A DNA stretch of 64,000 bases from Brachycybe producta. Its lineage: Eukaryota > Arthropoda > Diplopoda > Playtdesmida > Andrognathidae. The translations under genes and the position numbers were made by a program. Position 1 is the first letter of the stretch. Each line of letters starts with the position of its first letter. The stretch lies in contig JAUPFP010000102.1 in NCBI GenBank assembly GCA_036925085.1, forward strand, positions 186,001 to 250,000. The letters are read 5' to 3'. Shown here piece by piece: positions 10,820 through 44,662 of this stretch. The notes beneath the pieces were generated by a model, which was given only the letters and a program-made list of their open reading frames with translations, was not told where the DNA came from and made no database searches.

Positions 10820-11013
10820 TTAATCCATGAATCCCGTGTTGACCAATTTCTCCAAAAAGAATTTCACATCTCCCAATTCGGAATCTTTAATTCCCAAACT
10901 TTTCAACATTCCTAAATCTCCATTTTCGACCGCAAGAAACACATTTCGAAGATGTTCCAAATCGGACCGCATCAGGTGCAATGCCTTTCCAAAATCTTCA
11001 ATCGTTTGACTTT
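10820..11013 (-). CDS. Exon 4: conserved-looking C-terminal helical domain and stop
   Basis: A 194-base terminal exon encoding residues 145-208, then TAA at 10822-10820. The acceptor is TATTTACAG|AA, phase 1. The peptide begins ESQTIEDFGKALHLMRSD and ends KFFLEKLVNTGFMD. It looks like two or three amphipathic helices: DFGKALHLMRSDLEHLRNVF, then an acidic turn ENGD, then LGMLKSLGIKDSELGDVKFF. From memory, the tail of insect prohormone-4 is similarly well conserved, which would be unusual for a neuropeptide spacer and would argue that the tail itself has a function. No cysteine, no dibasic site and no glycosylation sequon is visible here. A plus-strand reading of the same DNA is only a shadow. 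Confidence 0.84.
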
Positions 11014-11089
11014 CTGTAAATACATATTTTAATATTGAAAAATAAAATAATTAAATATATTGTAAATAATAAAAAAATATTAAAAGTTA

Positions 11090-11345
11090 AGGTCCCTAAA
11101 GGGACACTTGCCCTAAAACCATTTGCCCTAAAAGGAAATTTGCTCTAAAGGGACATTTGCCCTAAAGGGAAATTTGCTCTAAAGGGACATTTGCCCTAAA
11201 GGGAAATTTGCTCTAAAGGGAAATTTGCTCTAAAGGGACATTTGCCCTAAAACCATTTGCTCTAAAGGGACATTTGCCCTAAAACCATTTGCTCTAAAGG
11301 GACATTTGCCCTAAAACCATTTGCTCTAAAGGGACATTTGCCTTT
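11090..11345. repeat. Minisatellite, 32-34 bp units (CTAAAGGGACATTTGCCCT)
   Basis: About seven to eight units alternate ACCATTTGCTCTAAAGGGAC and GGGAAATTTGCTCTAAAGGG. Located in intron 3, 80 bp from the exon 4 acceptor. It abuts family Q and may be an expansion of Q's AGAGCTAAAAGG end. Confidence 0.75.
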
Positions 11346-11585
11346 TAGCTCTAAAAGCATCCAAAACACAACCTTAATTATCAGAGCACGTGGACAAACT
11401 TATCCCCAGAACGTAACATAAGTGAAGAGAAAGAACGTGTTGAAATAGCGATGACGCAATTAAAAGTTTGCCACGTGCAAAAAAAAAAAGGAAAAGGTGA
11501 GTGTCAGTACATTTCTATAAGCGGAGGGCTAGTGGCGCCATCTAACGATACGTGCACAAAATAAATGATCAACTTGTATTCTTAA
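11346..11585. mobile_element. Family Q element
   Basis: Contains CAACCTTAATTATCAGAGCA, GCGATGACGCAATTAAAAGT and GGCTAGTGGCGCCATCTAAC. The same blocks recur in reverse at 33050-33345 and 56215-56570. Confidence 0.65.
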
Positions 11586-11606
11586 AAGTAATTTATTATA
11601 AAAGAA

Positions 11607-11864
11607 CTAGTGGGGTAACCCGTCTCATAAATGACGAGAGTCAAATTCTAGTTTAATTTTGCTACTAAAATTATTTAACTATTTATTCAAATACTTCTTA
11701 AGGATCTTACTATTGTTTGAGTTCTTGGATGGGGAGAGCGCAACATAAAGTTGACCATGATAAAAAAACCAGTTCATTTAAAACTAAATAAATTACGACC
11801 GTTGCTTAAACGTTTTTTGTCCTTGTTTGTACAGCGTTATACACAGACAGACAAAGCTTAATAT
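11607..11864 (-). mobile_element. Helitron-like element, short copy without the nested MITE
   Basis: On the minus strand it ends GGGTTACCCCACTAG followed by T, with a decayed hairpin upstream. The other side ends near AAGCTTAATATATAT. It lacks the C MITE and so provides the empty-site comparison for the copies at 26231 and 57303. Confidence 0.7.
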
Positions 11865-11866
11865 AT

Positions 11867-12371
11867 ATCAAATAATTTCAAGTTCTATTTCCGTTTTTAT
11901 TTTTCTAGCTTTGATATTTATAGCCTTCAAAAAAATTTCCACAAAAGAGAAAAAGTTCTAATCTAAATGGCAAACAATTTCTGTTTAATGTAAAAAAAAA
12001 ACGAAATCTAAACGAATTTCAAAAGAAACATCTATTTTTTTTATCCCACAAAATTACTCTTCATTTTTTCTTTCTTTCTTAATTTATAAATTAATTTTGA
12101 CGCCGAACTCAGTCATGTTCAATTTAGTTTAGTATAAAGTCTCAATTCACTTTATGCAAAAATAACATCTGCTTTTTATTCCTTCTAAAGTTTCAACCAT
12201 TTAAACGCCATTTTTTTCTTCTTCTTCTTCTCAAAATACAACCAATCCCTGTAAATGGGCAATCACTGCAAACACCCATCACACACCTAAATTCGGAATC
12301 TTAAGTACATTTCATTAAATTGCTCTGTAAAAAAAAGAAACTAGAAGGGTTATTGCTATGCCAAACTAGAC
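11867..12371. other. No exon seen: AT-rich intron 3 sequence
   Basis: T-rich and A-rich, with (CTT)n near 12220. No recognised repeat except CCCTGTAAATGGGCAATCAC near 12248. Confidence 0.5.
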
Positions 12372-12770
12372 ACTTCTTTAAGATGGGTTTATGCACAACG
12401 GATTTTTTGAACTCTTCATTATTGTCTGTCTTTCAAAAGAAAAACTAGAAAATGTTTTTAAAAAAAAAACTAGAAGGGTAACTCAATCACTTGAAGAGTT
12501 ATTTTCATGGTTGATATCTTTTAAAATAAACATTTTATAGACAAAAATTTTTAAAAAATATATCATCCTGCTTAAAAGTGGGGTCATTTTCAAACTTACA
12601 TAAAAAGCTTATTTTCAAAAACAAAATAATCAACATGTTAAGTGATGGCGTTACCCTTCTAGTTTCTAATACATTTTCAAGTTTCTCTTCATTTTGCATC
12701 TGAAAAGACAGAAAATAATCAAGCGTTCAAGAGGTGTTTATTACTTTAAAACCACCTTAAAGAAAGGAAA
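12372..12770. mobile_element. Family H palindromic element, near full length
   Basis: Arms: AACTAGAAGGGTAACTCAAT facing GTTACCCTTCTAGTTTCTAA, and inner GATATCTTTTAAAATAAAC. The outer end CTTTAAAACCACCTTAAAG is shared with the 42.6-kb copy. Confidence 0.7.
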
Positions 12771-13075
12771 AAAAAAAAAAAAAGAATTTCCGGATGTGCT
12801 TGAGTTTTCGCCATTTTCTTCTCAAATATGAGGCCATAGAAAGCCTCATATGAAGGTGGCCCTGCCATTGGTGCATAAATAACGCATAAATTATACATAT
12901 TCTGACCCTCACACTGAAGATCGTCGCCATATTGAATTTAATCATCTCGACAAAACAAGTTGTCAGAAATTAGATGCTTTCTTTCTTTCTTGAGAAGTGT
13001 CGGTCGGAGAGTTAACAATAATTCTCGGACACTTTTTAGACTTTAAAACTGCTTCTTTAGATGCCTTCCTTTTTA

Positions 13076-13260
13076 CAGGCATCTGTAGACAGCTTCAGAA
13101 TTTCTTTGGCTCCGCCCCTTTTATGAGCTTTAGACCAAATATCAACCAATTAAAAATAAAAAAGGCGGGGCATGTGACATCAGACCCAGTAACAAACCAA
13201 TTAGAAACTGATGACCTTCATAAAAAAGGCGGAGCCAAAAAAATTCTGAAGCTGTCTACA
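13076..13260. mobile_element. MITE family D
   Basis: Ends ACAGGCATCTGTAGACAGCT and AGCTGTCTACAGA. The inner arms GGCTCCGCCCCTTTTATGAG and CATAAAAAAGGCGGAGCC face each other. Carries CCAATTAG boxes and a TGACATCAGACC core. Copies at 28825 and 30803. Confidence 0.8.
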
Positions 13261-13262
13261 GA

Positions 13263-13408
13263 ACAGGTAGTTAGAAATAGGTGAAAACTTCAGTTGGCTC
13301 CGCCCTTGTTATGACGACCGGCAACTTCTAATTGGTTTGTTGTGTCGTTCGACGTTGAAAAAGGCGGAGCATGTGACGTCAGACTACATAACCAGCCAAT
13401 TAGCCAAT
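13263..13408. mobile_element. MITE family A, right arm truncated
   Basis: Starts ACAGGTAGTTAGAAATAG and continues through GGCTCCGCCC and TGACGTCA to CCAGCCAATTAG, where it breaks into Helitron-like sequence. Confidence 0.75.
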
Positions 13409-13411
13409 ATA

Positions 13412-13877
13412 CAGTATATATATATAAATGAACCGCTTTTTTTGTTGCACACTCCCCATCCAAGAACCCCATGATATTAAATTGGAGAGGGGGGAAGGTT
13501 AGAAAGTGTAGAGAGGGGGGGAGAGAGAAACGTGGAGGGGAAAAAAGTGGGAGGGGTGAGTGAAATTGAAATGAAGAGTAAAAAAGGAACAAACAACGCG
13601 CATGCGCACACCAGAGAAAATGAAAAACTCCTTTTCTCTTTCAAATATAAAAAGGGGAGGGGATAATAGTAGCAAAATTAAACTACAGTTTATCACAGGC
13701 AGCTGTGCCCAGCATTAGAATTTCTTTCGCTCAGCCCTTTTATGAACGTCATCAATTTCTAATTGGGTTTGTTACTTGGTCTGACGTCATAAAAGGGCGG
13801 AGGAAAAGAAATCCTAATGCTGGGCACAATAACCTGTGAATTTCGCACCTGTCGTTTATGACGGGTTACCCCACTAG
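13412..13877 (+). mobile_element. Helitron-like non-autonomous element with nested MITE C
   Basis: The 3' end is a hairpin (GTCGTTTATGACGGG region), then TTACCCCACTAG, followed by T, as expected for Helitron CTRR ends. Contains the conserved CTCCCCATCCAAGAACCCCA block and GCGCATGCGC. The 5' part is lost at the junction with the A copy. Small open frames here are not genes. Confidence 0.7.
13695..13837. mobile_element. MITE family C, nested in the Helitron-like copy
   Basis: Ends ACAGGCAGCTGTGCCCAGCA and TGCTGGGCACAATAACCTGT, with TGACGTCA and AAAGGGCGGAG inside. Confidence 0.8.
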
Positions 13878-14467
13878 TATTATATAACTACTAAGACAAG
13901 AGTGAATGTTTTCACAATTTCCTGTATATATTTTATATTATGTTCTTCTTTTCTTTATATTATGTAAAAAAAAACACCCAAAAATATCGTCGAATATTTT
14001 ATTAAATTCTATTTACATAATGTAAAAATTTTGCAAAATGCAAAACAGAAGGAAATTGACAAGAAATAAAACCTCAACTAGCCCGAGGTCCCCATTGGGA
14101 GGTGGAAATTTAGAATTGTTCAAAAGAAACTCATCCGGAAGAGTAAAAACAGCAAAGAAAAATTGTTTGCAGAAAACAAAAATAAATATTTCATTTTAGA
14201 ATATTTATTTATATGAAGAAAAAAAAATGTCTTCTTCTGTTTGAATCCCATTTTAAAAATAAATTCTGATTTAGATATTTCATCATTTTGGTGGATTTTC
14301 GGATTCACCAATTGTAATCTGGGATCAAAGAAACGACCATTTTTTTCTTCTTCTTCTCTTCTTCCTCCATTTCTTTTTCATTTTTCACGATTTCTCTTTT
14401 TTTTTATATTTATATCTTTTTCAATTATTATAGTATATTCAAATTTCACTATCTCTTTAATTCAAAC
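13878..14467. other. No exon seen: AT-rich intron 3 sequence
   Basis: TA-rich and T-rich, with TTC repeats near 14345. Short frames here show no coding character. Confidence 0.5.
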
Positions 14468-14545
14468 TATAGTTGGATCTCGAATTATCCGAATTAAATG
14501 AGACCGGATCTCGACCGGATTACGAAATATCCGGATAATGGCCGT
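14468..14545. mobile_element. Pogo-like TIR fragment (family N relative)
   Basis: ATAGTTGGATCTCGAATTAT and ATCCGGATAATGG resemble the N termini. Confidence 0.45.
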
Positions 14546-14749
14546 TTTTTTTCCATTTTTGCAAATGATTTATTATTATTTTAATTTACACAATTATATT
14601 ATCTAGATTTTAATGTAATTTTGAAATAAGAATTAAATATTCTATATCGATTGAATATTTTTTTTTAAAATCCTCATTTAATTAAAAATTAAATCTTATT
14701 AATTAAAACTAATTATTAAAATATATGCTTAGATATAATTGTTATTAAG

Positions 14750-14920
14750 CGTTCACAGACGAACTACTTTTAGTGGTTGACGACATTTTCTGCAAAAAAT
14801 GGCCGGCGTGTGGTTGCCAAAATCGATCACTCAAATCCGATTCTAAACGACCACTTTTTTTGGAGTCCATCTCGACCACTAAAAGTGTCGCTTTTCTTTG
14901 AACGACTCTTTGGTTTCGTA
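14750..14920. mobile_element. Family V foldback
   Basis: CTACTTTTAGTGGTTGACGA faces TCGACCACTAAAAGTGTCGC. The GACCAC/GTGGTC words are shared with V copies at 18257, 33605, 34190 and 63590. Confidence 0.5.
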
Positions 14921-15310
14921 TATAATGTTCAATGACCTAAAATAAAAGTAGTTATTTATTCCTTTGAAAACGTAATATTAAGAATTCAGTCGATGATTCC
15001 AATAATAAGAATAATATAAAAGGGACCCCAAAAGAAAAAGAAACCTGCATCAAAAGGCTACTAAACTGGGTGTAGAAGTAGAATCATCATCTCCATTTCA
15101 TTCCCTCTCTCTCTCTCTCTCTCTGACTCTTCTGTCCACTGAATACTAAATTTCTATACATTAAATGCGTGAGATGACCACACATGCGATGACCGATGAC
15201 CACCACTTCCCATCCCTCTTTTCTATTATGAATGGAATATCACTTTCTCCAACTGTTTCTTTGAAATAACAACCGGTCAAGTCGGAATGATGACCAGTGG
15301 TCAATGTACT

Positions 15311-16479
<1,169 letters not shown>

Positions 16480-16632
16480 CTGAAAGGGTGACAGCCACCT
16501 GCTGAACTCCACCTAAAGGTTCCAATGCATCTCTCGCTTTATTTCCGAACAGTTTTTCTAGATAATTGGGACCGTGGTTGGCAAGCAAACTCTGAAGAAA
16601 ATTGGCTGTTTCTTCAACCGGTGGCCTTTTGG
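16480..16632 (-). CDS. Exon 3: spacer region after the second KR site of the prohormone-4-like precursor
   Basis: A 153-base exon encoding residues 94-144. It begins AKRPPVEETANFLQ, so a second dibasic KR lies just after the LDLa domain and would release the C-terminal part. Visible blocks are NFLQSLLANHGPNYLEKLFG, then NKARDALEPLGGVQQVAVTL, largely helical with a Gly-Gly turn. I see no cysteine and no recognised catalytic motif. The acceptor used is TTTTTGAAG|CC, chosen because it restores the frame with exon 2. The donor is TCAG|GTAAAC. Introns of 1.35 kb (to exon 2) and 5.5 kb (to exon 4) flank it. The stretch is non-repetitive and GC-richer than its surroundings, as expected for a real exon in this repeat-laden DNA. 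Confidence 0.82.
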
Positions 16633-16729
16633 CTTCAAAAACATCAAGAAAAAAAAAAACCAAAAGTCAATTCGAAAATTTCTCAACATTTTTTTTTTCA
16701 ATTTACAAAATCTAACACATATTCAATAT

Positions 16730-17282
16730 TATAGTTGCCTCATCGTAAGATGAAGCCATGTGACGTCAGTGGAGGTTGACAACATTTTTTTCGGCTATTG
16801 TCATTTTGTTTTAATTAAAAACAGGTAATTAACTTATACCTTGTACACACCTGAGTTAAATGAATTCCAATTAAATGTGTTTAGGTGAACTTATACGGAA
16901 TCCAGTTAAGGACATGAACACCAAATAAAAATTCACTTTAATTATTAATATTTTAAATTGAAATACTAAATCAATAGTTTCTATTATTATATTTAAGTAT
17001 TAACTCAATATTTTCAGATTATTAACTGAATAAATTGAATTCAAGATATTGTTTGTTTGTCCTTCACAGGGCTCTGTAGAACACGTTTATTATTTAAATG
17101 CATTTAAATTATCAGGTGTGTGTACTAGGTATTATGCAGAAAACCTTTTGTTTAAATTTAGAAATGTTTTATATCAATTCGTTTTCTAAGTGACACAGTT
17201 GACTAAGTGACACAATAATAATTTTTTTTAATCAACCCCTCTGACGTCACAAGCTTCATCTTACACGATGAGTCAAACTATA
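16730..17282. mobile_element. Foldback element split by a nested F copy
   Basis: Outer arms TATAGTTGCCTCATCGTAAG and TTACACGATGAGTCAAACTA face each other, with GTGACGTCAG/CTGACGTCAC inside. The F copy at 16836-17132 lies between them, so F inserted later. Confidence 0.7.
16836..17132 (+). mobile_element. Family F element (nested)
   Basis: ATACCTTGTACACACCTGAG to GTGTGTACTAGGTAT. Sits in intron 2. Confidence 0.85.
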
Positions 17283-17334
17283 AAGTAGATTTTATTTAAT
17301 CAGATTTCAATTTTTTTTATAAAAAATTCAAAGT

Positions 17335-17895
17335 AATTTTTTTTTTTAGAAACTAGAATATTAAGAACTTGATGTAAAAATCCGATCCTCTAAAAGTTAT
17401 TTCAAGAGAAAACGTTTATTTTGAAAGATACTCTGAAAAGTTTATTTTAAAAAAAAATGGTTGCCAAATTAAATAATTTTAGAAACAATATTAATTCAAA
17501 AAATGTTTTAGAAACAAGAATAAATAAAAAGGTGATGTTAAAAGTATTTCATAAGAATATTTTTCAAAATTAACTTTTTCTCATGAAATACTTCATAATA
17601 ACATCAGAATCCATCACCTGTTATTTATTCTAGTTTCTAAGAAAAGACTATTTTGAGTCTTTTAATATTGTTTCTAAAATTATTATTGAAGTCTGCGACA
17701 AACCTTTATAATAAACTTTTGCGATTATCTTTCAAAATAAACGTTTTCTCGTGAAATACTTTAAAAGCATCAAGATTTTCAACCAAATGTGATCATTCTA
17801 GTTTTTTAAAAGTTGTCTCTGAATTAAACAATTTTATAAACAGTTCTAAGTTTATAAAATTATTTAATTCAGAGATAACTTTTAAAATAAACTTT
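17335..17895. mobile_element. Divergent family H cluster in intron 2
   Basis: Repeated TTTAGAAACTAGAAT / ATTCTAGTTTCTAA and inverted AAATAAACGTTTTCTCGTGA words form two or three overlapping hairpins next to the exon 2 donor. Confidence 0.5.
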
Positions 17896-17979
17896 TTATG
17901 GTCAAAGTTTACGTTCCAAGTGGGTCCCGACCCGACCCGTCTCTCTCTCTCTATTTAATAAATACACTGAATGACTGAC

Positions 17980-18123
17980 CTGCGGTACAAAGACGTGGAT
18001 CTTCATCGTATCCATCAGGACAATCGGCTGCCCCATCGCACAAATACTGAATGGAAATACAAATGTCATTTTCACCCGGACAACGGAATGGTTCGTACGG
18101 TTGGCACCGGTTAATAACATCCT
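17980..18123 (-). CDS. Exon 2: LDL-receptor class A domain
   Basis: A 144-base exon encoding residues 46-93. Six cysteines at about residues 52, 60, 67, 74, 80 and 91 have LDLa spacing, and the calcium-binding signature CDGAADCPDGYDE is intact. The acceptor is a pyrimidine tract ending TCTTCCGTAG, and the donor is GCAG|GTCAGT. Both borders are phase 1, the usual arrangement for shuffled extracellular modules. With the G from exon 1 the junction reads Ala-Glu-Asp-Val, so the LDLa domain starts a few residues after the KR that releases the peptide. LDLa modules normally bind ligands or calcium outside the cell. Their role inside a neuropeptide precursor is not established. Taken alone this exon could belong to any LDLa protein. 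Its assignment rests on exons 1, 3 and 4. Confidence 0.9.
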
Positions 18124-18179
18124 CTACGGAAGAGAAAAATAAATACAAAATAACCATAATTATAATTAAGTGATTAAGC

Positions 18180-18760
18180 TATCTTTCTAATTTCTAGAAC
18201 ATTTTTTTTCATTTCGCACCTGAAAGTCAGAAAATAATCAGAATTCGAGAGACATTTAGGGGCCTTTGGCACACAGGTTATTTTTGAAAGACTTTTCGGC
18301 GACAAAATGTAGTCGAAGGTCTCTAAAGGCTGTCGTCACTATGTATTTTCTATAAACGGACGGCAACGTTGGCACACAGTTAAAAGTCGCCTGTGTTGCC
18401 AAGGTTGGTGGTGTCTTTCCATAGAAAATACATTGCGACGACACCACCACGACCTTCGACTACATTTTGTCGTCGAAAAGTGGTTCAAACGTCGTCGGTA
18501 TGCCAATGCCCTTACACTTTAAAACCCACACACTTTAATATCTTAAAATAAACTTTTTATGTCAAGTTTGAAATTGATCCAACAGACTTTAAGATGTTTA
18601 TTTTGAAAGATTTTGAACGTGAAAAATACCCTTAAATGATTGGGATGTGTGTGGGGCTTGGGGGCTACCCTTCTAGTTTCTAGAACACTTTTCTAATTTC
18701 TCTCTCCTAAAAGACAGAATAAACAAAGTTCGAAGAACAATTTGTCATCATTATTTAGAT
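18180..18760. mobile_element. Family H element with nested V foldback
   Basis: H halves at 18180-18256 and 18530-18760 (CCTTCTAGTTTCTAGAACAC) are separated by the V foldback at about 18257-18511 (GGCACACAG...; TCGACTACATTTTGTCGTCG faces CGACAAAATGTAGTCGAAGG). Confidence 0.6.
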
Positions 18761-18960
18761 CACAAGAGTAAAAGAAAGATAAAGAAAAAAGAGACCATCA
18801 ACAAAAATGGACACCAAATGTGATTCAACAACACATCCATTAGTGTCAATACATTTTTAAACAACTAGGACCATTAGTTCAGTTGTGTGTGACTTCATCA
18901 TCCCCACCCCCCCCCCCCCAAGAGTCCAAAAAAAGGCCCTACAAAAAAAAAGAGATCACG

Positions 18961-19250
18961 TGACATTCCTATTTTCGCCTTTTGTCAAACGTGTCATAAA
19001 AGTTTATTTTAAAAAAATATCATCATGAAAACACTTTTAGTATTATCACCAACTATTCTAGTTTCTAAAACACTTCTGAATTTTTTTTTCGTAATCTTTA
19101 TTCTGAAAAAACGTTCGCTTGAAAAATAATCGCAGGTTGGGGAGAGAGGGGGAGAGAGACCTCCATATAGAACATAATAGCCACTGCAGTGGCGCCATCT
19201 GAGAGGACAAAAACAAAATAAATATCTATTCAGCCACCTTAAAAGCCTCC
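18961..19250. mobile_element. Family R element, right half
   Basis: ACTATTCTAGTTTCTAAAAC, then CACTGCAGTGGCGCCATCTG and CTATTCAGCCACCTTAA, the R end block. Confidence 0.6.
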
Positions 19251-19439
19251 GAAATGCAAAAGTGGCAAATAAAAACACAACATCAGAAGAGAGAAAGAGA
19301 GAGAAAAAAAAATAGAAAAATTATACTTGCAAATCAGATTCAGACAAATATTAAAAAAGAACAAACACACAAAACACTAACAGAAATAGAAGACAATTTC
19401 AATTATTGTTTTTTTCTATTTCTCTCAGGATGAGAAGAG

Positions 19440-20095
19440 TGAGAGGGGGGGGAAGAGAAATAGAAAGAGAGAGAGAAATAGGGAGGAAAAGAGAGAGAGA
19501 AATAGGGAGGAAAAGAGAAATAGAAAGAGAGAGAGAGAGAGAGAGAGAAATAGGGAGGAAAAGAGAAATAGAAAGAGAGAGAGAGAGAGAAATAGGGAGG
19601 AAAAGAGAAATAGAAAGAGAGAGAGAGAGAGAGAGAGAGAAATAGGGAGGAAAAGAGAAATAGAAAGAGAGAGAGAGAGAGAAATAGGGAGGAAAAGAGA
19701 AATAGAAAGAGAGAGAGAGAGAGAGAGAGAGAAATAGGGAGGAAAAGAGAAATAGAAAGAGAGAGAGAGAGAAATAGGGAGGAAAAGAGAAATAGAAAGA
19801 GAGAGAGAGAGAGAGAAATAGGGAGGAAAAGAGAAATAGAAAGAGAGAGAGAGAGAGAGAAATAGGGAGGAAAAGAGAAATAGAAAGAGAGAGAGAGAGA
19901 AATAGGGAGGAAAAGAAAAATAGAAAGAGAGAGAGAGAGAAATAGGGAGGAAAAGAAAAATAGAAAGAGAGAGAGAGAAAGAAATAGGGAGGAAAAGAGA
20001 AATAGAAAGAGAGAGAGAGAGAGAAAAATAGGGAGAGAAAGAAAGAGAGATGGAAAGTGAGAGAGAGAGAGAGCTGGAGGGAAAGAAAAGTGAAT
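19440..20095. repeat. Purine-strand minisatellite (GAAATAGGGAGGAAAAGAG...)
   Basis: About 13 units of 40-60 bp, each GAAATAGGGAGGAAAAGAGA followed by a (GA)n run of variable length. The plus strand is almost all purine. All long frames in it (Ser/Leu/Phe or Arg/Glu) are artefacts. Confidence 0.95.
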
Positions 20096-20194
20096 TGAAG
20101 ATGAAAAGAGAGACAATTAAATTAACACGAGAAGACGAAAAGGCGAGAAGGACCTCAAAATGGAGGAGGAATAAAAGGGCGCCAATCAAACTGA

Positions 20195-20245
20195 AGGGGT
20201 GAGGAGGAGGAGGAGGAGGAGGAGGAGGAGGAGGAGGAGGAGGGC
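20195..20245. repeat. (GGA)n microsatellite
   Basis: About 14 GAG/GGA units on the plus strand. Confidence 0.9.
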
Positions 20246-20589
20246 TATGTTAAGAGTATGATCAGTGTAGGTGGATGCAATGCCACCCCCTCCCTCCCCC
20301 GAAAAAGGAACCCATGAAAACTAAGAATCAGATAAAAGATGAGAATGAGATCGCAATAAACTTCATTGGAAAAACAGCAACAACAGGAGGTTTTCTTTAT
20401 TATTATTGGTCAAACAATTGTAGGCTTATTTTGGTGAACAACTTAGGAAGTCTTTCTTATAATATATAATCAATAAAGAATTTCAGTTTAGGGTCCGAAA
20501 TTTTCTCTTCTACAAGCAGAAAATATATTATTACGTTTCTATTTTCGGAAACATAAGTGTTTTTGTGATCAGCATTTTCCATTTTCCTT

Positions 20590-20800
20590 GTTAGGCCTTG
20601 CTTCCATTGGGGTGAAAATTTCAACAGGTGAAAAATTGAACAAACGTGGCCCAACCTCCGCCTATTCACTATCATAAGCTGAAGCCAACGTTTGTTTTAT
20701 TTTTCACCAGATGAAATTTTCAAAAAGTTCAAATTTCTACCTCCAATGGAAACAAGGCCTTAGGGAAGAATCACACATGCTGAAAAAAAAAAAAAACAGA
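20590..20800. mobile_element. Family I foldback plus abutting family J end
   Basis: AGGCCTTGCTTCCATTGG faces CCAATGGAAACAAGGCCTTA (I). It is followed at once by GAATCACACATGCTGAAAA, an end of the palindrome seen whole at 29985-30093 (J). Confidence 0.65.
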
Positions 20801-21610
20801 AATTAGAAATAAGAAATACAAATAAAAAATCACAATGTTTCAATGGTTCTTTGCACTGAGGAGCCAATTGAAGTTCTTTCCTATTTCTAATTTGCCTGTG
20901 AGTCAAAGAGTTGAAGAAGTGTCGTCAGTACATTTCTATGGGAGGAGGGCTAGTGGCGCCATCTAACGCTACACGCACAAAATAAATGATCTACTTGTAT
21001 TCTTCATCCGTTTCTTTTTATAGTCGAGTATTTTATATGAAATGATGTCTTAATGAAATTATTTATTTAAATTGCACACACAGAACAGTGATGAAAGTGA
21101 TCACGAAATACCAACTATAAACTCGGCTTTTAACTGCCTAAACCTGTAGTGAATTTATTCTCTCTCTCTCTCCATCTCTTAATATATATTCATACATGGG
21201 TTTCTTTTTATTTTCATCTTTCAAGATGAATGTAATCTTCTAGAAAAACACTGAAAAAGTGTACATAGAAACCAAGAAAAGTGTTCAGAAGAGCGGAATA
21301 CAAACACAGGAAGAGAGAGAGAGAGAGAGAGAGAGACAACTTACATAGTAAAACACATAGACAGAGAGAGAGATACTCATAGAAAAATTCACTATATGAA
21401 CATCTCTCTTTTTCTTTCTCTCATCCTTCTGTCTCTCAAAAAACATTGTTACATACTAGAAAGAGAAACAAATGAGATATGTGATCATGTCTTTTTTTTT
21501 TTTGTGACAATATAGAAAAAAGTTGTATTGTTTAAGATATTTGTCAGAAACAAAAAAAACAAACATGTGTTTTGAGTGGCGGCGGCGGCCACACTGACAG
21601 TGACACACAT
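20801..21610. other. No exon seen: Q fragment at 20920-21010 and GA/CT microsatellites
   Basis: GGGCTAGTGGCGCCATCTAA near 20950 is the Q end block. (AG)n at about 21313-21336. The remainder is AT-rich with a GGCGGCGGC patch near 21579. Confidence 0.55.
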
Positions 21611-21611
21611 T

Positions 21612-33030: not shown

Positions 33031-33045
33031 GTCACTTTTTCCTTT

Positions 33046-33345: not shown

Positions 33346-33414
33346 CTTAAACCAGCTTAATTAGATGTAAACCGATTAAAGTCACAAGGATGTCTCATCA
33401 TGCCTAACCAATCA

Positions 33415-33599
33415 ACAGGCATTTAGAAATCGGGACGAAAACAAGTTGGCTCCGCCCCTTTTCATGACGACCGGGAACTTCTGATTGATTGGTTGGTTGT
33501 GTGGTTCGACGTTGATATAGGCGGAGCATGTGACGTCAGACTACATAACCAAAAAAGGGCGGAGCCAACTTGTGTTCGTCCCGATTTCTAAATGCCTGT
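33415..33599. mobile_element. MITE family A, internally shortened
   Basis: ACAGGCATTTAGAAATCGGG to CTAAATGCCTGT. Flanks AACCAATCA and GACCAATAA match at seven of nine bases. The right arm lacks the GTTGCCGGTCGTCAT part. Confidence 0.85.
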
Positions 33600-33604
33600 G
33601 ACCA

Positions 33605-34420: not shown

Positions 34421-34449
34421 CCTGAATGTTCCGTAGTGAAATGGATTGT

Positions 34450-34678
34450 ATTCAAAACACTCTCTCGCTCTCTCTCTCTCTCTCGCTCGCTCTCTCTCTC
34501 TCTCTTTCCTTTTCTCTCTTTCTTGTCTTTCCCTATCTCTTTCATTATTTTATCTTTTTCACAGTCTATCTGTCTCTCTACTCTATTTTGATTGTCTCCC
34601 TCTCTCATCTCTCTGTGACTTTCCCCTCTATCTCTTCTGTCTCATCACTATCTCTCTTTAATTCACTTTCTCATTCAC

Positions 34679-34740
<62 letters not shown>

Positions 34741-34780
34741 ACTCTGTTCCCATTTTCCATTCGTCTCTCTCTCCCTTCGT
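34450..34780. repeat. (CT)n-rich simple sequence
   Basis: Long CT runs at 34461-34504 and 34680-34738 with interrupted CT between. Ser/Leu frames here are artefacts. Confidence 0.92.
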
Positions 34781-35313
34781 GAATCAACCATCAAAAGGTA
34801 GAATAAGAAATTAGATTAATTTGGATGACACACAATCACAAACACAATTTATAATGTACAGTTAGTTGTGTTTATGTGGAGAGAGAGAGAGAGAGAGAAA
34901 ACCCCCAAATGAAAAAAAAAGCTGTCGTTCCCATTTTCAAAATGAAACGACAAACCCGTCAAAATTGGTTAAACAACAGATAATAAAAATGTTCAAATTT
35001 GAGTGTTGTTCAAACAAAAATATTATCAATTTTTGTTTCATTATTAAATGGCATAAAATAGAAAACAAAATTCTCAAATCGGAATCAATCAATGAATAAA
35101 TCATCAATCACTCAAAGCTAAATACGGATGGAACATTTCATTTTCCATTGTTTATTTCTCAATGAAAAATATGAGTTATTTTCAATATAAATGAGTTTTT
35201 AAAAACTAGAATAGTAAATGCAACGCAAAAGAAGATTTTCATAGTTACAAATCAAAAAAATTAAAAATTATCGTAAAACGTTTATTTTTAAAGATACCAA
35301 CCTGAAAATATTG
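34781..35313. other. No exon seen: AT-rich with (GA)n at 34878-34899
   Basis: A degraded H remnant (AAAAACTAGAATAGTAAATG) near 35200. Nothing else recognised. Confidence 0.5.
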
Positions 35314-36050
35314 CCTTAAAAGAGAGACTACATCGGAAAATGACTTTGAAAAATCTCCACAAAGAGGCGCTAGCATCGTTTTTCTATTGAACTAATAGAC
35401 ACGATGTTAAAAAAATGTTAATTTTTTAAAATACACCAAAGTCACGGCGGCAATATGTTTATTTTTTATATTTAAAGTTGTCCAATTTTGATGGTTCAAA
35501 GTGCAATGTGCACCTTAAATATAAGCTGATCGAGTGATAGAATGACAAAAAAATTGGTAAGTGCGGTTCTATTTTTAAAAACTATTTCAAAATCGCGAAT
35601 TTCTAACTCTTATGTTAAACTCCATTGAGTACGCGCTCGTAAGCAAAAAAAGCATCCATTAAAATATTGGTAAAAATACCTAAAAATAATAATTTTAAAA
35701 ACCAGAAAAAAATCAGCACGTGCGCCAATGTGTTGGCTTTACTGTGGTTTAATTGTTTTTTAAAAAATATTTTTTACGTATTTTCACGAGCATTTTAATG
35801 GATGTTTTTTTTTTGCTTACGAGCGCGTACTCAATGGAGTTTAACATAAGAGTTAAAAATTCGCGATTTTGAAATAGTTTTTTTTTTAAAAATAGAACCG
35901 CACTTACCAATTTTTTGTCATTCTATCACTCGATCAGCATATATTTAAGGTGCACATTGCACTTTGAACCATCAAAATTGGACAACTTTAAATAAAATAA
36001 AAAATAAACATATTGCCGCCGCGACTCTTGTGTATTTTAAAAATTAACAT
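35314..36050. mobile_element. Family S long palindromic element, copy 2
   Basis: Same arms as 22951-23822 (GCGCTAGCATCGTTTTTCTA at the left), but the outer right arm stops at AAAATTAACAT, and the terminal CAGTATGG ends are lost. Confidence 0.78.
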
Positions 36051-36052
36051 AG

Positions 36053-36358
36053 TTGAATTTGAATTTGTGTTTAAATCACAAAAAAATGAACAGGGGTAGA
36101 AGAAGACCAATAGATCCTATTTATAATCCCTTTGAAAACCATCGTGCTGGACGTGGAAAACGTGTACGTGTACGGCGGACGGCGTACGGCGTACGTGTAC
36201 GGAAAGAAAGTGTTAAGTGCAAAAGCAGACTGTATGAGGAAAAAAAAAAAAACTGGCTTAAAAGATTGAAATTGTCTAAAACCTGGGGGGGGGGGGGAAT
36301 CCATTATTCCCAAACGGTAAATACCATGGTAATACCTGGTAAATACCACCTCTGTTAA
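36053..36358 (+). other. Orphan open frame rich in Arg (uncertain)
   Basis: After the in-frame ATG at 36086 the frame reads MNRGRRRPIDPIYNPFENHR, then GRGKRVRVRRTAYGVRVRK. Composition differs from the surrounding simple-repeat frames. The Arg/Val part comes from a GTACG/GGCGTACG repeat (36167-36201). It follows directly on the truncated S copy. No domain recognised. It could be a transposon-derived fragment, or chance. Confidence 0.2.
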
Positions 36359-36659
36359 ACCAACCCTGGTTGAGAGCGGGGTTGAATGGTAACCAACATT
36401 GTGCAACAATTGGCTCAATTATGAGTTTCAAACAAAAAAAACCCTTCCTCAGGGTAGCAGCATTATAACAATATAATGTGGTTACTTCATTATTTCCTCC
36501 ATTATTTATGACCATCAAGACACAAAAAAATAGATACTAGAAAGGGCGAAAAAAAAAAAAAGCTGACCACCTACTGTTAAAAATAATAAGTTAGTAACAC
36601 TCAAAATGTGAGCAATGCTGAGAAATGGAAAACCATTTTTAAGGGGGAGCTTTTTTTTC

Positions 36660-36776
36660 TTCTTCTCCCATTGCTCTCTCTCTCTCCCTCTCTCTCTTCT
36701 CTCTATCTTTCTTTCTCTCTCTCTCCCTCTTTCTCTCTCTCCCTCTCTCCCTCCCTCTTTCTCTTTCTCTCTCTCC

Positions 36777-36813
<37 letters not shown>

Positions 36814-36848
36814 TCCCTCTTTCTCTCTCTCTCTCTCTCTCCCTCTCC

Positions 36849-36892
<44 letters not shown>

Positions 36893-36893
36893 A
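36660..36893. repeat. (CT)n/(CCCTCTTTCT)n simple sequence
   Basis: Pyrimidine plus strand with periodic CCCTCTTTCTCTCT. Arg/Glu and Ser/Leu frames are artefacts. Confidence 0.95.
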
Positions 36894-37339
36894 GGAAGAG
36901 ATAGTTGATATATATTTCTCAATAAATCTCTCATTCAATTGGAGAGAAAGATAGAAAGATAGTGAGACAGAAAGAATAAGAGATAGAAAGATAAGAGAGA
37001 AAGAAATCAAAATGAATCTCTAGAACAATACAAATTGGATTCAGTGATTCATTATTATCAATGGAAAAAAAAACAAACAACCACCATTTGATGATAAATG
37101 ACCATTTCTTTATCTTCAGCATCATTTTTTTTTCTCTTAACACGAAAAAAAAAGCACACACGTGCCACTGATACGGGCCTATGTATATACATTATAAATA
37201 ATGGATCTTTAACAATGGATATCTAAACAATGGATTTATAAAAGATAATCATCATCATCATTTTCTATTTTGTTGAATGGAAGACATTCAATGACAAGTG
37301 AGAATTAACTAGCAATGATCAAAATGAATACACGAAGAA

Positions 37340-37800
37340 ATTACTTAAGGTGGCTGAATAGATATTTTTTTTGTTTTCGTCAAACCCATCCTAGATGGCG
37401 ACACCGTAATGATTAATATTATGCTTCATAGACTTTTTTTTTGAAAAATTTGGACGCAAAAACGTCAAGCAAACGTTTTTCCTTTAAAAAAAAAGCAACA
37501 TTACCGAAATAAATTCAAATTTGTTTTCAAAACTAGAATGGTAAAAGATTATGTTAAACGTATTTTTCTTCTTCATGGAAATATCTTAAAAAATAAACAA
37601 TTTGATAGTTCAGTTTGAAAATTATCCGATTTTTAGGTTTTTCAATTGACATTTCTTTAATTCGCTTTTTACAAAATGTTATGAAAAGTTTATTTTGAAA
37701 GATATCAAACATGAAACTACCTTTAAGTGATTGAGCTACTCTTCTAGTTTCTAAAACACTTTCTAGTTTCTCGTCATTTTGCTCCTCACAAAAATTATCA
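37340..37800. mobile_element. Family R palindrome
   Basis: CTTAAGGTGGCTGAATAGAT, TTTGGACGCAAAAACGTCAA and AAACTAGAATGGTAAAAGAT at the left, GAAAGATATCAAACATGAAA and CTACTCTTCTAGTTTCTAAA at the right. Confidence 0.65.
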
Positions 37801-37824
37801 TTTGAGCAACTGCAACTATGCTTT

Positions 37825-38110
37825 TTCTAATCAAATAAGGCTAGTTAGAGGCTAGATGTCTGGTTGCTATGAATTGACAAATAATAGTTCTAGCCTCAAA
37901 CTAATATTAATGCAAAATAGCAAGCAAATGTTTCTCAATTTGTGGCTCAAGTGCAAATTGTGAAGTAATTATCATTATAAAAAAAGGCTAGTTAGAGGCT
38001 AGATGTCTTGGTTACTATCAGTTGTCCACTAAAAGTTCTAGCCTCTAACCAGGTGTTTTTGATTTTTTTTAAAAAAAAACATAATTGTTGGTTGATCTAA
38101 ACGCGGGATT
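37825..38110. mobile_element. Family T foldback, dispersed copy
   Basis: GGCTAGTTAGAGGCTAGATG occurs twice, and AGTTCTAGCCTCTAACCAGG faces it. Confidence 0.65.
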
Positions 38111-38770
38111 GTTACTTCACAATTGGCTCTTGGGCCACAGATTGAGAAACATTTGCTTGTTATTTTGCATACCTTACTAATGAGGTTCCACTTTTTTAGA
38201 ACCCACCCTGTACATTTTATCATTACAAAGACACAACTTATTGGAATGCAACGCAACAATTTAAGTTGTTCGTCGTATCTTGGCAACCGGCGTAAATAAA
38301 TCTTGTTTGTCGGTGGCAATTTTCCTTTAAACCGTTTATCTACTTAATGGGAGTTGCCATTGCACCAGATTAGAATCTATGAACGGTTTCTCTCTCTCTC
38401 TCCCCCCACCTCCACACACACAGAATGTGGGGCCCAAAGTGCCCCCACCCCCACCCCCACACACACCTCCACCCACACACTTCAAACAAAACTCATCAAT
38501 CTCTCCCCTCACTCATTCCGAACCACCTACTCCTTTTATGATAGAACAATGGATACAAAAAGCTAAACAATGAACAAATTAACTTAAGAAATTTTTTCTT
38601 TTAAAACGCCATCAAATTATGAATAATTTGTGTAAAAATGACTTTCACAGCGTTTTTTCTTTATTGAATTAATTTTTTTTTAACTAAATAGATTAATTAT
38701 TAAATGGACTTTAACTTTCAAAATTAAGGTATAAAAATGACAAAATGAATAAATAAAATGTATGGATTAA
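38111..38770. other. No exon seen: CA-rich/CCCCCA patch and AT-rich DNA
   Basis: CACCCCCACCCCCACACAC at 38440-38470. The frames crossing it are low-complexity. Confidence 0.5.
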
Positions 38771-38779
38771 AAAAGTTCC

Positions 38780-39585
38780 AGTGGAAACGCTCCTCTCAAA
38801 CTCTTGATTATTATTTCTGTCTTTCAGGTGTAAAATTAAGCGAAAATTGAACGTGTTTTAGAAACTAGAAGAGTAGCAGTGTCCCACCCAATCACTTATG
38901 ATTATTTTTCTGAAGATATCTTTCAAAATAAGCTTTTTCATCAAGAGTTTAAAAATGGCCCAACTTTAAGCAGACGATTTTTTTTAAAAAAATTGTCTAA
39001 AAAATATTTTGAAAAATATCAACATGAAAATACCATTGAGTGAGTGAGCTGCTGCCACTACCCTTCTAGTTTCTAAAACACTTTAGTATTTTCTTCTAAT
39101 TCTTAATTTTGCTCAGCTGAAAGACAGAAAATTCCGAGTTCCAAAAATCAGCTATTCATAAAAACCATCTTAAAAATAGAAACTGCAAAGTGTTTTATAA
39201 ACTAGACGGGTACCAGAGTACCACCACCTTTCTAGTTTCTAAAATACTTTCAATTTTCTCGTAATTCTTAATTTTGCTCTGCTAAAAGACAGAAAATTCC
39301 GAGTTCCAAAATCAGCTATTTATAAAACCAAGAGAAACTGTAAAAGTGTTTTATAAACTAGAAGGGTAGCTTGATCACTCGGATATCAAACTTATCTTTT
39401 AAAATAAGCTTTTTATGTCAGTTTAAAAATGACCATCAACATGAAAACACCCTTAAGTCATTGAGTTACCCTTCTAGTTTCTAAAAACCTTTTCCTAGTA
39501 ACTTTCAAATTTGCTTCTCATTTGTGCAAAACAGAATAATAATAAAGAGGTTTAGAGAAAATCAACTGTTCATAAACCATCTTTA
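38780..39585. mobile_element. Three adjoining family H elements
   Basis: AACTAGAAGGGTAG / CTACCCTTCTAGTTTCTAAA pairs at about 38870-39080, 39200-39365 and 39355-39485, separated by the shared GACAGAAAATTCCGAGTTCC end block. Confidence 0.65.
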
Positions 39586-39997
39586 ATGGAATCTGAATCT
39601 TTCGATGGAAACTTAAACTTAAGTCTTAAGTTTTTGGCGCCAATTTTGATAATAAATAATCTTAACGGGGGGAGGGCTGGTTGGAAATGACGTTGAAAGG
39701 ACGGTTCTTCCATTGTTTTCCATCTTATTGTTAAGCCAGAAAGACGCCAGCAAAAATAAGACTTGTTTCCGAGAAAATGCTTTTTGCAACTTTGAATTGT
39801 CATCATCATCATCATCCGCCCTTGTTTTTCTCTCTCTCTCTCTCTCTCTCCTCATTTCCTTCAGAATATATGGAGTGGGTTCTCAAACAGTTGGCCCCCC
39901 TCTTGAAAGAGGCTATAAGGACCAGGCCCCAATGCAAAATCTGTTAACAAGGGTCCTCCCTAAATGTTTATATATTAATCAAGGCTCCCCTCTTTAT

Positions 39998-40203
39998 ACA
40001 GGCATTTAGAAATCGAGAAGAACTTCAGTTGGCTCCGCCCTTTTTAAGACGAACGGCAACTTCTAATTGGTTGGTTATGTAGTCTGACGTCACATGCTCC
40101 GCCCTTTTCAACGTCGAACCACAAAACAAACCAATTAGAAGTTGCCGATCGTCATAAAAAGGGCGGAGCCAACTTCTGTATGTCCCGATTTCTAATTGCC
40201 TGT
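39998..40203. mobile_element. MITE family A, no clear target duplication
   Basis: ACAGGCATTTAGAAATCGAG to CTAATTGCCTGT. Flanks CCTCTTTAT and GTTGTCTCC do not match, so one flank may have been rearranged. Confidence 0.88.
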
Positions 40204-40387
40204 GTTGTCTCCAGAGAGCGCTCGATTTCATTGCATGTCATAAGTTGACCTAGAATTTTATGGAATTTTAAGCAAAAATAAATTCCAAGAAAGGAACTTT
40301 CTCACTTTTATGAACAGGTTGATTTTTCCGTACTCTTGAATAATATATTCCGTCTCTTTCAGAATATATACACAATATTAAGAGGAA

Positions 40388-41170
40388 CTAATAAGTGTTT
40401 TAGAAACTAGAAGGGTAGTTCAATCACTTAAAGAGGATATTTTCATGGTTGATTATCTTTCAAAATAAACTTTTTTGTTTATATAAAAAACTTATTTTGA
40501 AAGATATCAACATGAAAATACTCCTAAAGTTCATCTACCCTTTCTAGTTTCTAAAAAAACACTTTCATTTTCATGTTGATAATATATATTTTAAAATAAG
40601 CTTTTTATTTCACCTTGAAAATGTCCCGACTTTTTAAGCAAATGATTTGTCTATATAAAAAAAAGCTTATTTTGAAATATATCAACATGAAAATAGTACT
40701 CATTAAGAGATTCAGCTACCATTCTAGTTTTTAACACTTTATTTAATCTAAACATTGTTGTTCTTATGAAACACAGAATAATAATCAGAATTCGAAAATC
40801 ACCTGTTCATAAATATCTTAAATGATACACAATAAAACAGGCGTGTTTTCTATGTTTTAATATTGGCGTTAGAAACTAGAAGGGTTATTATTAATCAATT
40901 AAAGAATATTTTTATGTTGTTATTTTTTTAAAATTAACTTTTTATGTCACAGACGATATTTTGTTTTTAATATTTTGTTTTGTGAATAAAAAGCTTATTT
41001 TGAAAGATATCAACATGAAAATACCATCAAATGATTCAGCTACCATTCTAGTTTCTAACGCACTTTCAACTTCATCATCATCTTGAGTGTTGTTGCTATT
41101 CTGAAACACAGAATAATCAAAGACTTCGAAAATTACCTAATAATAAAACTATTTTAAATAATACATAATA
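40388..41170. mobile_element. Two to three family H elements in series
   Basis: TTTAGAAACTAGAAGGGTAG...CCCTTTCTAGTTTCTAAA at 40396-40560, a right-half copy at 40590-40840, and a third at 40868-41070 (TTAGAAACTAGAAGGGTTAT...CTACCATTCTAGTTTCTAAC). Confidence 0.65.
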
Positions 41171-41215
41171 AAAACAAGCGTTTTTTTATGTTGGAACCCT
41201 GGCTTTATACCTAGT

Positions 41216-41514
41216 ACACACACCTGATAATTGAAATGCATTTAAATAATAAACGTGTTCTACAGAGCCCTGTGAAGGACAAACAAACAATATATCGAAT
41301 TCAATTTATTCAGTTAATAATCTCAAAATATTGAGTTAATTTACTTAAATATAAAATATATAAACTATTGACAAAATATTGATTTAGTATTTCAATTTAA
41401 AATATTAATAATAAAATCAAATTTTTATTTGGTTTATGTCCTTAACTGGATTCCGTATAATTCACCTAAACACATTTAATTTCAATTCATTTAACTCATG
41501 TGTGTACAAAGTAT
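41216..41514 (-). mobile_element. Family F element, left member of head-to-head pair
   Basis: TATACCTAGTACACACACCT to GTGTGTACAAAGTATA. Confidence 0.85.
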
Positions 41515-41515
41515 A

Positions 41516-41822
41516 ATACCTGGTACATACATAAGTTAAATGAATTCCAAGTTTTAATGTGTTCAGGTGAATTATACGAAATCCAGTTAAGGACATAAAC
41601 CAAATAAAAATTGACTTGATTGATTGATTTAAATTGAAATACTATAAATCAATATTTTGTCAATAGTTTTTATATTTTATATTTCAGTATTAAGACAATA
41701 TTTTGAGATTATTAACTGAATAAATTGAATTCGACATATTGTTTGTTTGTCCTTCACAGGGCTCTGTAGAACACGTTTATTATTTAAACGCATTTAACTG
41801 TGTATGTGTGTGTACAAGGTAT
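41516..41822 (+). mobile_element. Family F element, right member of head-to-head pair
   Basis: ATACCTGGTACATACATAAG to GTGTGTACAAGGTAT. Only one or two bases separate it from the previous, inverted copy. Confidence 0.85.
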
Positions 41823-42529
41823 TAGAGAGTTCAAGTTAAAAGTGATTAAGTTTATTGTTAAAAATTTGAGCCATAATTACCAAACTTCTCAACAGTTTTC
41901 TTTAATAAATTCCTTAAAAGTAACTTACAAAAAAAAAGTTACTTTTATGTTAGACAAAAAAAAGCGGAAACTTAAAGAATCAGACATTTGAAATTCTGAT
42001 ATAAAAAAAAAACCGGAAAAAAAATATATATAAAACCAACTTGAATGAATCCTCTTGAGAGTAGTGTAAATTGCGCATGCGTACAGTATCAAGAACGTTC
42101 ATTTTGAAATTGCTTTTTTTTTTGTGTGTGTGTGTGTGTTTTGCAGTGAAGTTATCACAATGACACCAAAAAAAAAAAAAGGGGCCAAAAACCAAATTGT
42201 GAGAATCGAAATGTGAACACACACAATGGTCACGCAAAACTAATTTAATGTTTCTCTCTTTTTTTCTATATTGTCTACCCACACACACAAGACGAAAATA
42301 AAAAGCTAGAAAGACCAAAATATGATAACACAAACAGAATAAATTATAATTTATATTAAATAATAATATTTATGCAAAAAAAAACCGAATGACATTTTAA
42401 AGGTCATGATTTATAGGACCATTAAGATATATTTTATTAAACCGCTGATTTTCTAAATTTTGTTTTCTTTTTTTAGACATTTCCTGATATAAAAATGTTG
42501 GTGGCTATTTTTTTCTAATTAATTTTAAA

Positions 42530-43040
42530 TTTTAGCAATTTCTGGAAATTTTTTTTAGCAATATTTCACTAAAACCAAGGTCACACATTCATAAAAAGCG
42601 AACTGAAAATAGAATTTACTTTTTAAGGTGGTTTTAAAGTGTAAACCGCCTCTCGAACTCTTTGATTATTCTACTTTTTCAGGAGCAAAATTATCCGGAA
42701 CTTGAATGTGGTATAGAAACTAGAAGGGTAACTCAATATCACTTAAAAGAGTGAACACCTTTCTGCTTAAAATTGGATCTTTTTCAAACTCACATATATG
42801 TAAAAAAGCTTATTTTTAAAGATGTTAACATGAAAAAATACAATTTAAGTGATTGAGTTACCCTTTCTAGTTTCTAAAACACTTTTCAGTTTCTGATAAT
42901 TTTTGCTCCTGAAAAAGCAGAATAATCATGAGTTCGAAAGACGGTTTACACTTGAAAACCACCTTAAGAAAAAATTCTATTTTCAGTTCGCTTTTTTTTC
43001 TGCATGTGGGACCTTGGCCTTAGTAAAAAAATATTGCTAA
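42530..43040. mobile_element. Outer foldback with a complete family H element at its centre
   Basis: AGCAATTTCTGGAAATTTTT and GCGAACTGAAAATAGAATTT (left) face AAATTCTATTTTCAGTTCGC and AAATTCCAGAAATTGCTAAA (right). H occupies 42630-42975 (AAGGTGGTTTTAAAGTGTAA to TTACACTTGAAAACCACCTT). Confidence 0.75.
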
Positions 43041-43214
43041 AAAAATTCCAGAAATTGCTAAATTTCTGAAAATTAACAAACAAGTACAAAAAATGTTAAT
43101 TTGGAGAAGAAAAAAATAGAAAAAAGTTCGAGAAAAATAAATAAAATTACTAAAAATCAACAAAGAAAAACGCGGAAAACAAAATTTGTTAAAATTAACG
43201 AAAGCAATTCCTAA

Positions 43215-44275
43215 AAATGGACGAACAGATCACGAAAATTGTAAAAATTTAAAAAAAATACCTAAAAAATTACCGATAATCTCGAGAATTTGGAGAAAAA
43301 TAAATTAGAAAAAAAAAAGTTTGAGAAATTGAAATAAAATGAATAAAAATCGACAAATAGTTAAAAAAAATCTAAGAATGAGTAAATAAGGTTAGAAAAA
43401 TAAAGCAAAAACGGCTAAAATCAGCCAAAAAATCTGAGTAAATTGAGAAAAAAATCCATAAAAATAGAGAAGAAAAAAAAAAATCTGCTATATTTGAAAA
43501 TGTCCGAATTAGAAAAACAAGAAATAAATCCTCCAAAATTAAAACAATTTCATTAAAATTTGTAATAAAAAAATCTCTTTAATTTTAATCAATTTTAAAA
43601 TAACCAATTTAACCGAATTTTCTTTTGGTTATTTACTATTATTATTATCGTTATTTATCCAATTTTGACCTCCGAAATACACAAAAATGGGAGAAAAATA
43701 TTCGCCACAAAAATGCACAAAAAAGTGGGATTTGTTTCTAGTCTTTAAAATGGCGCCTAAGTTAAGGTATGCCGCTTCAAATATGACAATTTAATATAAC
43801 AGAAATGGTAATGTCTCCCCCGCCTCCTACGCGAGCGGTCCAAGTTTTTAACAAAATCTAACTAAACCTAACCAAACATAACTAAAATATAAACAATAAG
43901 AAACGATTTATTGGTAGAAAATGATTGGAAAGAAAAAATAAGTTTGTACCAGACTAGGGTCCAAGGATCAATTTAAAGCCGAATTGCACAAAAGCCGGAG
44001 GAGACGTTACCATTGGCGATGCGGCATACCTTAACGTAATGGATTTTTTTCTCAAATTTACTCAGATTTTTTGGTTGATTTTAGCCGTTTTTTCTTTATT
44101 TTTCTGACCTTACTTACTCATTCTTAGATTTTTTTTTTAACTGTTTGTCGATTTTTATTCATTTTATTTCAATTTCTCAAACGTTTTTTTTTTTTCTAAT
44201 TTATTTTTCTTCAAATTTTCGAGATTATTGGTAATTTTTTAGGTATTTTTTTTAAATTTTTACAATTTTCTAAAC
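43215..44275. mobile_element. Large inverted repeat with a nested TIR element
   Basis: The left arm (about 43215-43470) and right arm (about 44036-44275) are reverse complements with scattered differences (GGCTAAAATCAGCCAAAAAA faces TTTTGGTTGATTTTAGCCGT). Between them a second element begins TTAAGGTATGCCGC (about 43762) and ends GCGGCATACCTTAA (about 44034). Its middle has CTAACTAAACCTAACCAAAC. Confidence 0.7.
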
Positions 44276-44526
44276 AAGTCCGCCCCCCCCCCCCCGCCAA
44301 AAAAATTCAATAAAATACCCAATAAAAAATACCTAAAAAAAGTTCTGAAAAATAAAACAAAATCCCTTAAGAGATTTTTGTTTTATTTTATGTCATTTTT
44401 TTTTTTAAAAAAAAGTCCAAAGTACACCATAAAAATAACAGAAAATCCACTAAAATGTCAAAAAAATATAAACCATCATAAAATGAAAAATAATTTTTAT
44501 TGTAAAAAAAAAACCCCCCTCCTCAC
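44276..44526. other. Start of intron 1: AT-rich with poly-C at about 44283-44295
   Basis: Poly-A/T and C-rich tracts between the inverted repeat and the exon 1 donor. No other signal seen. Confidence 0.5.
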
Positions 44527-44662
44527 CTGCACGTTTGTTGACCGATATCCTGTTCCTTAGAAAACGTCCAATGTCCAAAGCAGCAACACCAGTAGAGCAA
44601 ACCAACACAATGACCATGATGGTCAACACAATGTTGTACCGTTGTTGTTGTTGTTGCACCAT
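44527..44662 (-). CDS. Exon 1: signal peptide and LDIGRF-type peptide of prohormone-4-like precursor
   Basis: Encodes residues 1-45 plus one base. Met1 at 44662 is followed by five Gln, then a hydrophobic core (residues 11-28, IVLTIMVIVLVCSTGVAA), a typical signal peptide. The likely mature peptide LDIGRFLRNRISVN follows, ending at Lys43-Arg44. It compares with the known IDLSRFYGHFNT-KR peptide: acidic residue at position 2, then R-F, then a basic/polar tail before KR. The start was chosen because the hydrophobic segment follows immediately and the context is favourable (A at -3, G at +4). The frame stays open upstream to an ATG at 44995, but that leader is low-complexity, with an Arg run from a GAA/CTT-type repeat, and would bury the signal peptide. 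The donor is GCAG|GTGAGG, phase 1. Ala could also be the first mature residue if cleavage falls one residue earlier. Confidence 0.83.

Follow-up and report, generated by a model that had tools for sequence, protein, structure and literature searches.

The window, as we call the whole 64-kb stretch of DNA analyzed here, carries a gene on its minus strand whose four coding exons are genuine. The gene probably encodes an intact, secreted precursor of the prohormone-4 (IDLSRF-like) type that is homologous to the NMDA receptor auxiliary protein NRAP-1 and would give rise to two products, the larger of which, 164 residues in length, would act on NMDA-type receptors. The family is conserved and commonly classed among the neuropeptides, and taken by itself the gene is an unexceptional member of it; what is new here is the homology, at the level of sequence comparison, with NRAP-1 over the LDLa module and the tail that follows it.

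Gene model

The exons (Table 1), of 136, 144, 153, and 194 nt, join into 627 nt that encode 208 codons followed by TAA, with 0 internal stops, and each of the other two frames of the joined sequence is interrupted by several stops. An intact 208-residue precursor assembled from four minus-strand exons, joined in phase 1 throughout and with about 1.9% of the gene span coding, had been proposed in the initial annotation, and this proposal holds: 3/3 introns are in phase 1, GT..AG is found at 3/3, and the coding fraction is 627/33,843, or 1.85%. Every intron splits a codon after its first base, and exons 2 and 3 are each symmetrical (1-1).

Table 1. Coordinates of the gene and its associated features within the window
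Feature	Position	Strand	Content and support
Exon 1 (coding part)	44527..44662	-	Likely signal peptide ~1-28, LDIGRFLRNRISVN, KR; architecture only
Intron 1	18124..44526	-	26,403 bases; many dispersed repeats inside
Exon 2	17980..18123	-	LDLa, six cysteines, residues 52-91; Pfam PF00057 E 2.2e-7, tblastn E 2.0e-9
Intron 2	16633..17979	-	1,347 bases; one ~300-base dispersed repeat at 16833-17132
Exon 3	16480..16632	-	First half of cysteine-free C-terminal domain (RPPVEET...); tblastn E 1.7e-13
Intron 3	11014..16479	-	5,466 bases; long (TA)n array near 15316-15900
Exon 4	10820..11013	-	Second half of C-terminal domain and stop TAA; tblastn E 1.6e-4
Polyadenylation-like signals, candidates	10693..10702	-	Two overlapping AATAAA, ~120 bases past the stop codon

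The ATG of exon 1 carries A at -3 along with G at +4. Its open frame extends upstream to position 45028, and within it this ATG is the first Met following a stop; an untranslated exon may lie further upstream. Downstream, more AATAAA/ATTAAA motifs are present at 10819, 10593, 10149, and 9434, all of them candidates only as polyadenylation signals. Splice sites were ranked by a rough scoring that used generic weights. On this scale the donor of exon 1 (CAG/GTGAGG) is the single best of the 3,237 GTs on the minus strand (top 0.0%), and those of exons 2 and 3 (CAG/GTCAGT and CAG/GTAAAC) fall within the top 0.8 and 1.4%. Among the 3,586 AGs of the minus strand, the acceptors of exons 2, 3, and 4, which end in TAG, AAG, and CAG, fall within the top 0.8, 10.9, and 36%. 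Those of exons 3 and 4 are unremarkable by composition and therefore rest on the protein match.

Homology with the NMDA receptor auxiliary protein

In a phmmer search of the PDB, which matched 71 sequences, the best match of the 208-residue protein was chain 8v14_A, named "NMDA receptor auxiliary protein" (E 3.7e-38, residues 40-206), and the second-best chain followed at E 1.2e-6. Among the best 60 of the 71, no chain besides 8v14 extends beyond residue 95. From its name, we take 8v14 to be the Caenorhabditis elegans protein of the NRAP-1 paper. Going by the title of that paper, by Lei and others in Neuron in 2017, NRAP-1 is reportedly a presynaptically released protein that acts at NMDA-type receptors and modifies synaptic strength.

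The reverse comparison, a tblastn search of the window with 160 residues of the 8v14 chain as the query, placed its top three matches in exon 3, exon 2, and exon 4, in that order of significance. The three are collinear on the minus strand, and their edges lie no more than 9 bases from the proposed exon edges. Because these three best matches stand against a fourth in the window at E 3.1 and, in a single control with the window reversed, a best value of 0.52, exons 2-4 are beyond chance, and for these exons the protein match is decisive.

The joined protein and 8v14 are identical at 70 of 164 positions (43%) by blastp, in an alignment that is free of gaps across junctions 2/3 and 3/4. The resemblance covers both LDLa and tail and includes an unchanged RPPVEET run; a dibasic KR ahead of LDLa is also common to the two proteins, as is a C-terminal domain without other convincing match in the PDB. 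Indeed, the 115-residue tail without LDLa matched 8v14 at E 9.6e-19 and the next chain at 0.98, and a two-row profile of the tail recovered 8v14 at 2.3e-57, a value that follows from its construction, with all other chains at 1.1 or above. The proteins differ in that the tail of the window protein is five residues longer and in that the KR after its LDLa is TR in 8v14. A single-sequence structure model of the window protein had a mean pLDDT of 39.7.

The 8v14 chain, which reads RDIINGKRGADAATPC from residue 5, was also probed for an IDLSRF-like start with LDIG and IDLS before that residue, and neither probe aligned there. As the chain counts no more than 12 residues through the end of its KR and may be a trimmed construct, these failed probes are no proof of absence, and 8v14 is of limited use for judging the small peptide.

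One further group invites comparison, the LDL-receptor family, in which the likeness consists of one LDLa module encoded by a symmetrical 1-1 exon. The window protein differs from these proteins in having a single module, in having no membrane-like hydrophobic stretch after LDLa, and in its tail, which was not found in them.

A precursor of the prohormone-4 type

The precursor consists of a signal peptide, an IDLSRF-like peptide (LDIGRF...), KR43-44, an LDLa module (Pfam match over residues 51-86), and a cysteine-free tail. Its cysteines are at position 22, within the signal peptide, and at positions 52, 60, 67, 74, 80, and 91, with none after 91; no N-glycosylation motif was found in the 208-residue protein. 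Searches of Pfam and NCBIfam with the precursor matched no prohormone-4 family, NCBIfam returning nothing. Assignment to the prohormone-4 type is by published descriptions of architecture, not by sequence alignment, and these descriptions support it.

As described in excerpts of the respective papers, oyster prohormone-4 comprises a signal peptide, short peptides, an LDLa whose cysteines number six, and a long C-terminal part that is free of cysteine (PMC8398477), and the same order of parts applies, again by description, to the precursors of Cherax and cone snails; those of honeybee and ladybird also belong to this closest known group. The ladybird precursor is given as 208 residues (PMC12194362), the length found here. 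In Cherax the precursor is 219 residues long, of which 26 form the signal peptide; its KR lies at 40 and its product has 178 residues (PMC5141488), compared with 43-44 for the KR and 164 residues after it in the window protein. The label "prohormone-4-like" given in the initial annotation is therefore supported by the architecture: the domain order and sizes match the oyster and crayfish descriptions, and the small peptide resembles those of honeybee and oyster. The small peptides differ: LDIGRF... here, IDLSRFYGHFNT in honeybee, and MSVDFSRL in oyster. The family is placed at a stem-protostome origin in an excerpt of one study (PMC6425005), and another, on Conus, reports prohormone-4 transcripts, among them one that the venom gland overexpresses, and refers to a further Conus class that is prohormone-4-like (PMC6891753); the family therefore also diversifies.

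Proposed processing and function

The precursor would enter the secretory pathway and lose its signal peptide near residue 28, after which a prohormone convertase would cut at KR43-44 to release an LDLa protein of 164 residues and the small peptide, either LDIGRFLRNRISVN or, if a further basic cut follows, LDIGRFL. KR95-96 is probably left uncut, given the Pro after it and the TR at this place in 8v14, and LDLa and tail would then stay joined. LDLa modules contain three disulfides and a calcium. By homology with NRAP-1, the 164-residue protein would be released from neurons and act at NMDA-type glutamate receptors, and the small peptide may serve as a separate signal. An identity of 43% with 8v14 leaves room for a change of function.

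A different reading is that the gene encodes a classical neuropeptide precursor, in which signaling falls to the small N-terminal peptide alone, via its own receptor, and LDLa and tail are a by-product or folding aid. The small peptide does occur free in other species: excerpts of the literature describe MSVDFSRL as found in oyster by mass spectrometry and honeybee IDLSRFYGHFNT as found by peptide sequencing (PMC8398477), and an IDLSRF-like peptide has been described as imaged in ant brains. However, conservation of LDLa and tail to the degree seen with 8v14, including the unchanged RPPVEET, exceeds what a mere by-product would need, albeit in one pairwise comparison, and with so few residues of 8v14 through the KR, the small peptide cannot be compared on fair terms. 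We regard the classical reading as unlikely. The initial description of a "neuropeptide gene" is probably incomplete, LDLa and tail being homologous to 8v14.

If the precursor is instead of the two-product kind that we favor, a broader proposal can be made, to which we give roughly even chances: prohormone-4/IDLSRF and NRAP-1 may be one protostome family under two names, whose precursor yields a short neuropeptide and an LDLa protein, secreted and conserved, that tunes NMDA receptors. Were this so, the "precursor-related part" would be a synaptic modulator of glutamate receptors across arthropods, molluscs, and nematodes. In the available excerpts of the oyster and crayfish papers, prohormone-4 is without settled function and no receptor is named (PMC8398477, PMC5141488), and the NRAP-1 match offers a concrete candidate target, the NMDA-type glutamate receptor. 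The match would also link two literatures that, as far as searched, use the names separately: within the scope of that search, which did not extend to the original NRAP-1 paper, no paper named prohormone-4 with NRAP or IDLSRF with NMDA, and among the matches listed by a looser search there was none useful for prohormone-4 with NMDA.

Exon 1

Exon 1 and junction 1/2 rest on less than the remainder of the gene, being supported by architecture: the KR common with 8v14, the phase, the top-ranking donor, and a scan of the window in which exon 1 was the sole match. The likely signal peptide is indicated by hydropathy (a hydrophobic run at residues 11-29 with a mean Kyte-Doolittle value of 2.7), and LDIGRFLRNRISVN-KR, at residues 29-44, lies directly after it. 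The scan covered both strands for the combination of an ATG with a hydrophobic stretch, a dibasic site, and a donor in phase 1, and returned nothing in the reversed window; its recipe was drawn up after the exon had been seen, so the result establishes uniqueness without amounting to a blind test.

Exon 1 could also belong to another gene, in which case the LDLa-tail gene would begin with a different exon, located in intron 1 or outside the window. It is 26.4 kb distant and, except for the KR, has no homology match of its own. Yet it supplies that KR at the very position of the KR of 8v14, together with an IDLSRF-like motif after a likely signal peptide, and it combines the best donor score with the only match to the scan, post hoc as that was. 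A loose version of the motif, composed from the honeybee and oyster examples and the window peptide itself, occurs also at 44074 (+) and 3589 (-) and is absent from the reversed window. Taken together, these features make a foreign origin of exon 1 very improbable, and we retain it as the first coding exon of the precursor gene.

Repeat setting and other features of the window

The gene had been described as hidden in "34 kb of repeats." The setting is indeed repeat-rich, but the phrase is loose: tandem repeats make up 6.8% of the gene span and sequence with similarity elsewhere in the window 35.1%, with 41.5% falling into either class. None of the exon bases (0) lies in tandem or self-similar sequence. 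The combination of (TA)n, (GA)n, and palindromic elements would make a mollusc a plausible source. Such a setting might point to a pseudogene or an assembly accident, but with 208 codons free of stops and frameshifts, intact splice dinucleotides, and 6/6 LDLa cysteines kept, this explanation is scarcely credible.

Scans of viral contigs and of prokaryote genome contigs (one each) found no relatives, as expected for an animal gene, and a literature search for stretches of the proteins found none in papers. Across the window, there was no Rfam match at gathering score and no tRNA. A lax Rfam threshold yielded 46 matches, with microRNA families accounting for 44, and as 46/46 were below gathering score we read them as foldback repeats rather than microRNAs. 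Pfam found nothing on ten stretches (9 of 101 filtered ORFs, of which 70 were listed, plus the upstream part of a tenth). The window also contains a reverse-transcriptase ORF, which was covered by the Pfam scan of the precursor and not by that of the ten stretches.

Repeats and Additional Open Frames

The window carries seven full copies of a foldback (palindromic) element of ~210 bases, six of them within intron 1 of the prohormone-4-type gene, and the element looks like a MITE-type transposon. A second element, of ~730 bases, is present in two copies that match each other both ways round, and is therefore palindromic. A third family, of ~300 bases, is represented by nine copies, two of which adjoin at 41207-41822, inverted relative to each other.

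Repeat copies in the window
Element	Copy	Position	Feature
~210-base foldback	full	24353-24568	
~210-base foldback	full	29193-29398	
~210-base foldback	full	31064-31269	
~210-base foldback	full	31594-31806	
~210-base foldback	full	32832-33030	
~210-base foldback	full	39998-40203	
~210-base foldback	full	48839-49046	
~210-base foldback	shorter piece	13263-13403	
~210-base foldback	shorter piece	33415-33548	
~730-base		22987-23790	
~730-base		35323-36050	
~300-base		1357-1660	
~300-base		16833-17132	imperfect terminal inverted repeats
~300-base		30164-30462	
~300-base		41207-41516	
~300-base		41516-41822	
~300-base		51444-51759	
~300-base		54052-54340	
~300-base		62882-63145	
~300-base		63228-63530	

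Intron 3 contains a (TA)n array of just under 600 bases (15316-15900); the several open frames across it are nothing more than a by-product of its simple-repeat sequence. At 33539-33862, two open frames of protein-like composition overlap on opposite strands; neither has a Pfam match. A further open frame, of 331 residues (60891-61886, forward strand), encodes a partial reverse transcriptase domain (E = 3.4e-16, matching positions 111-203 of the 205-position Pfam profile PF00078) and closes with an (ATG)n run, like the ends of some LINEs.
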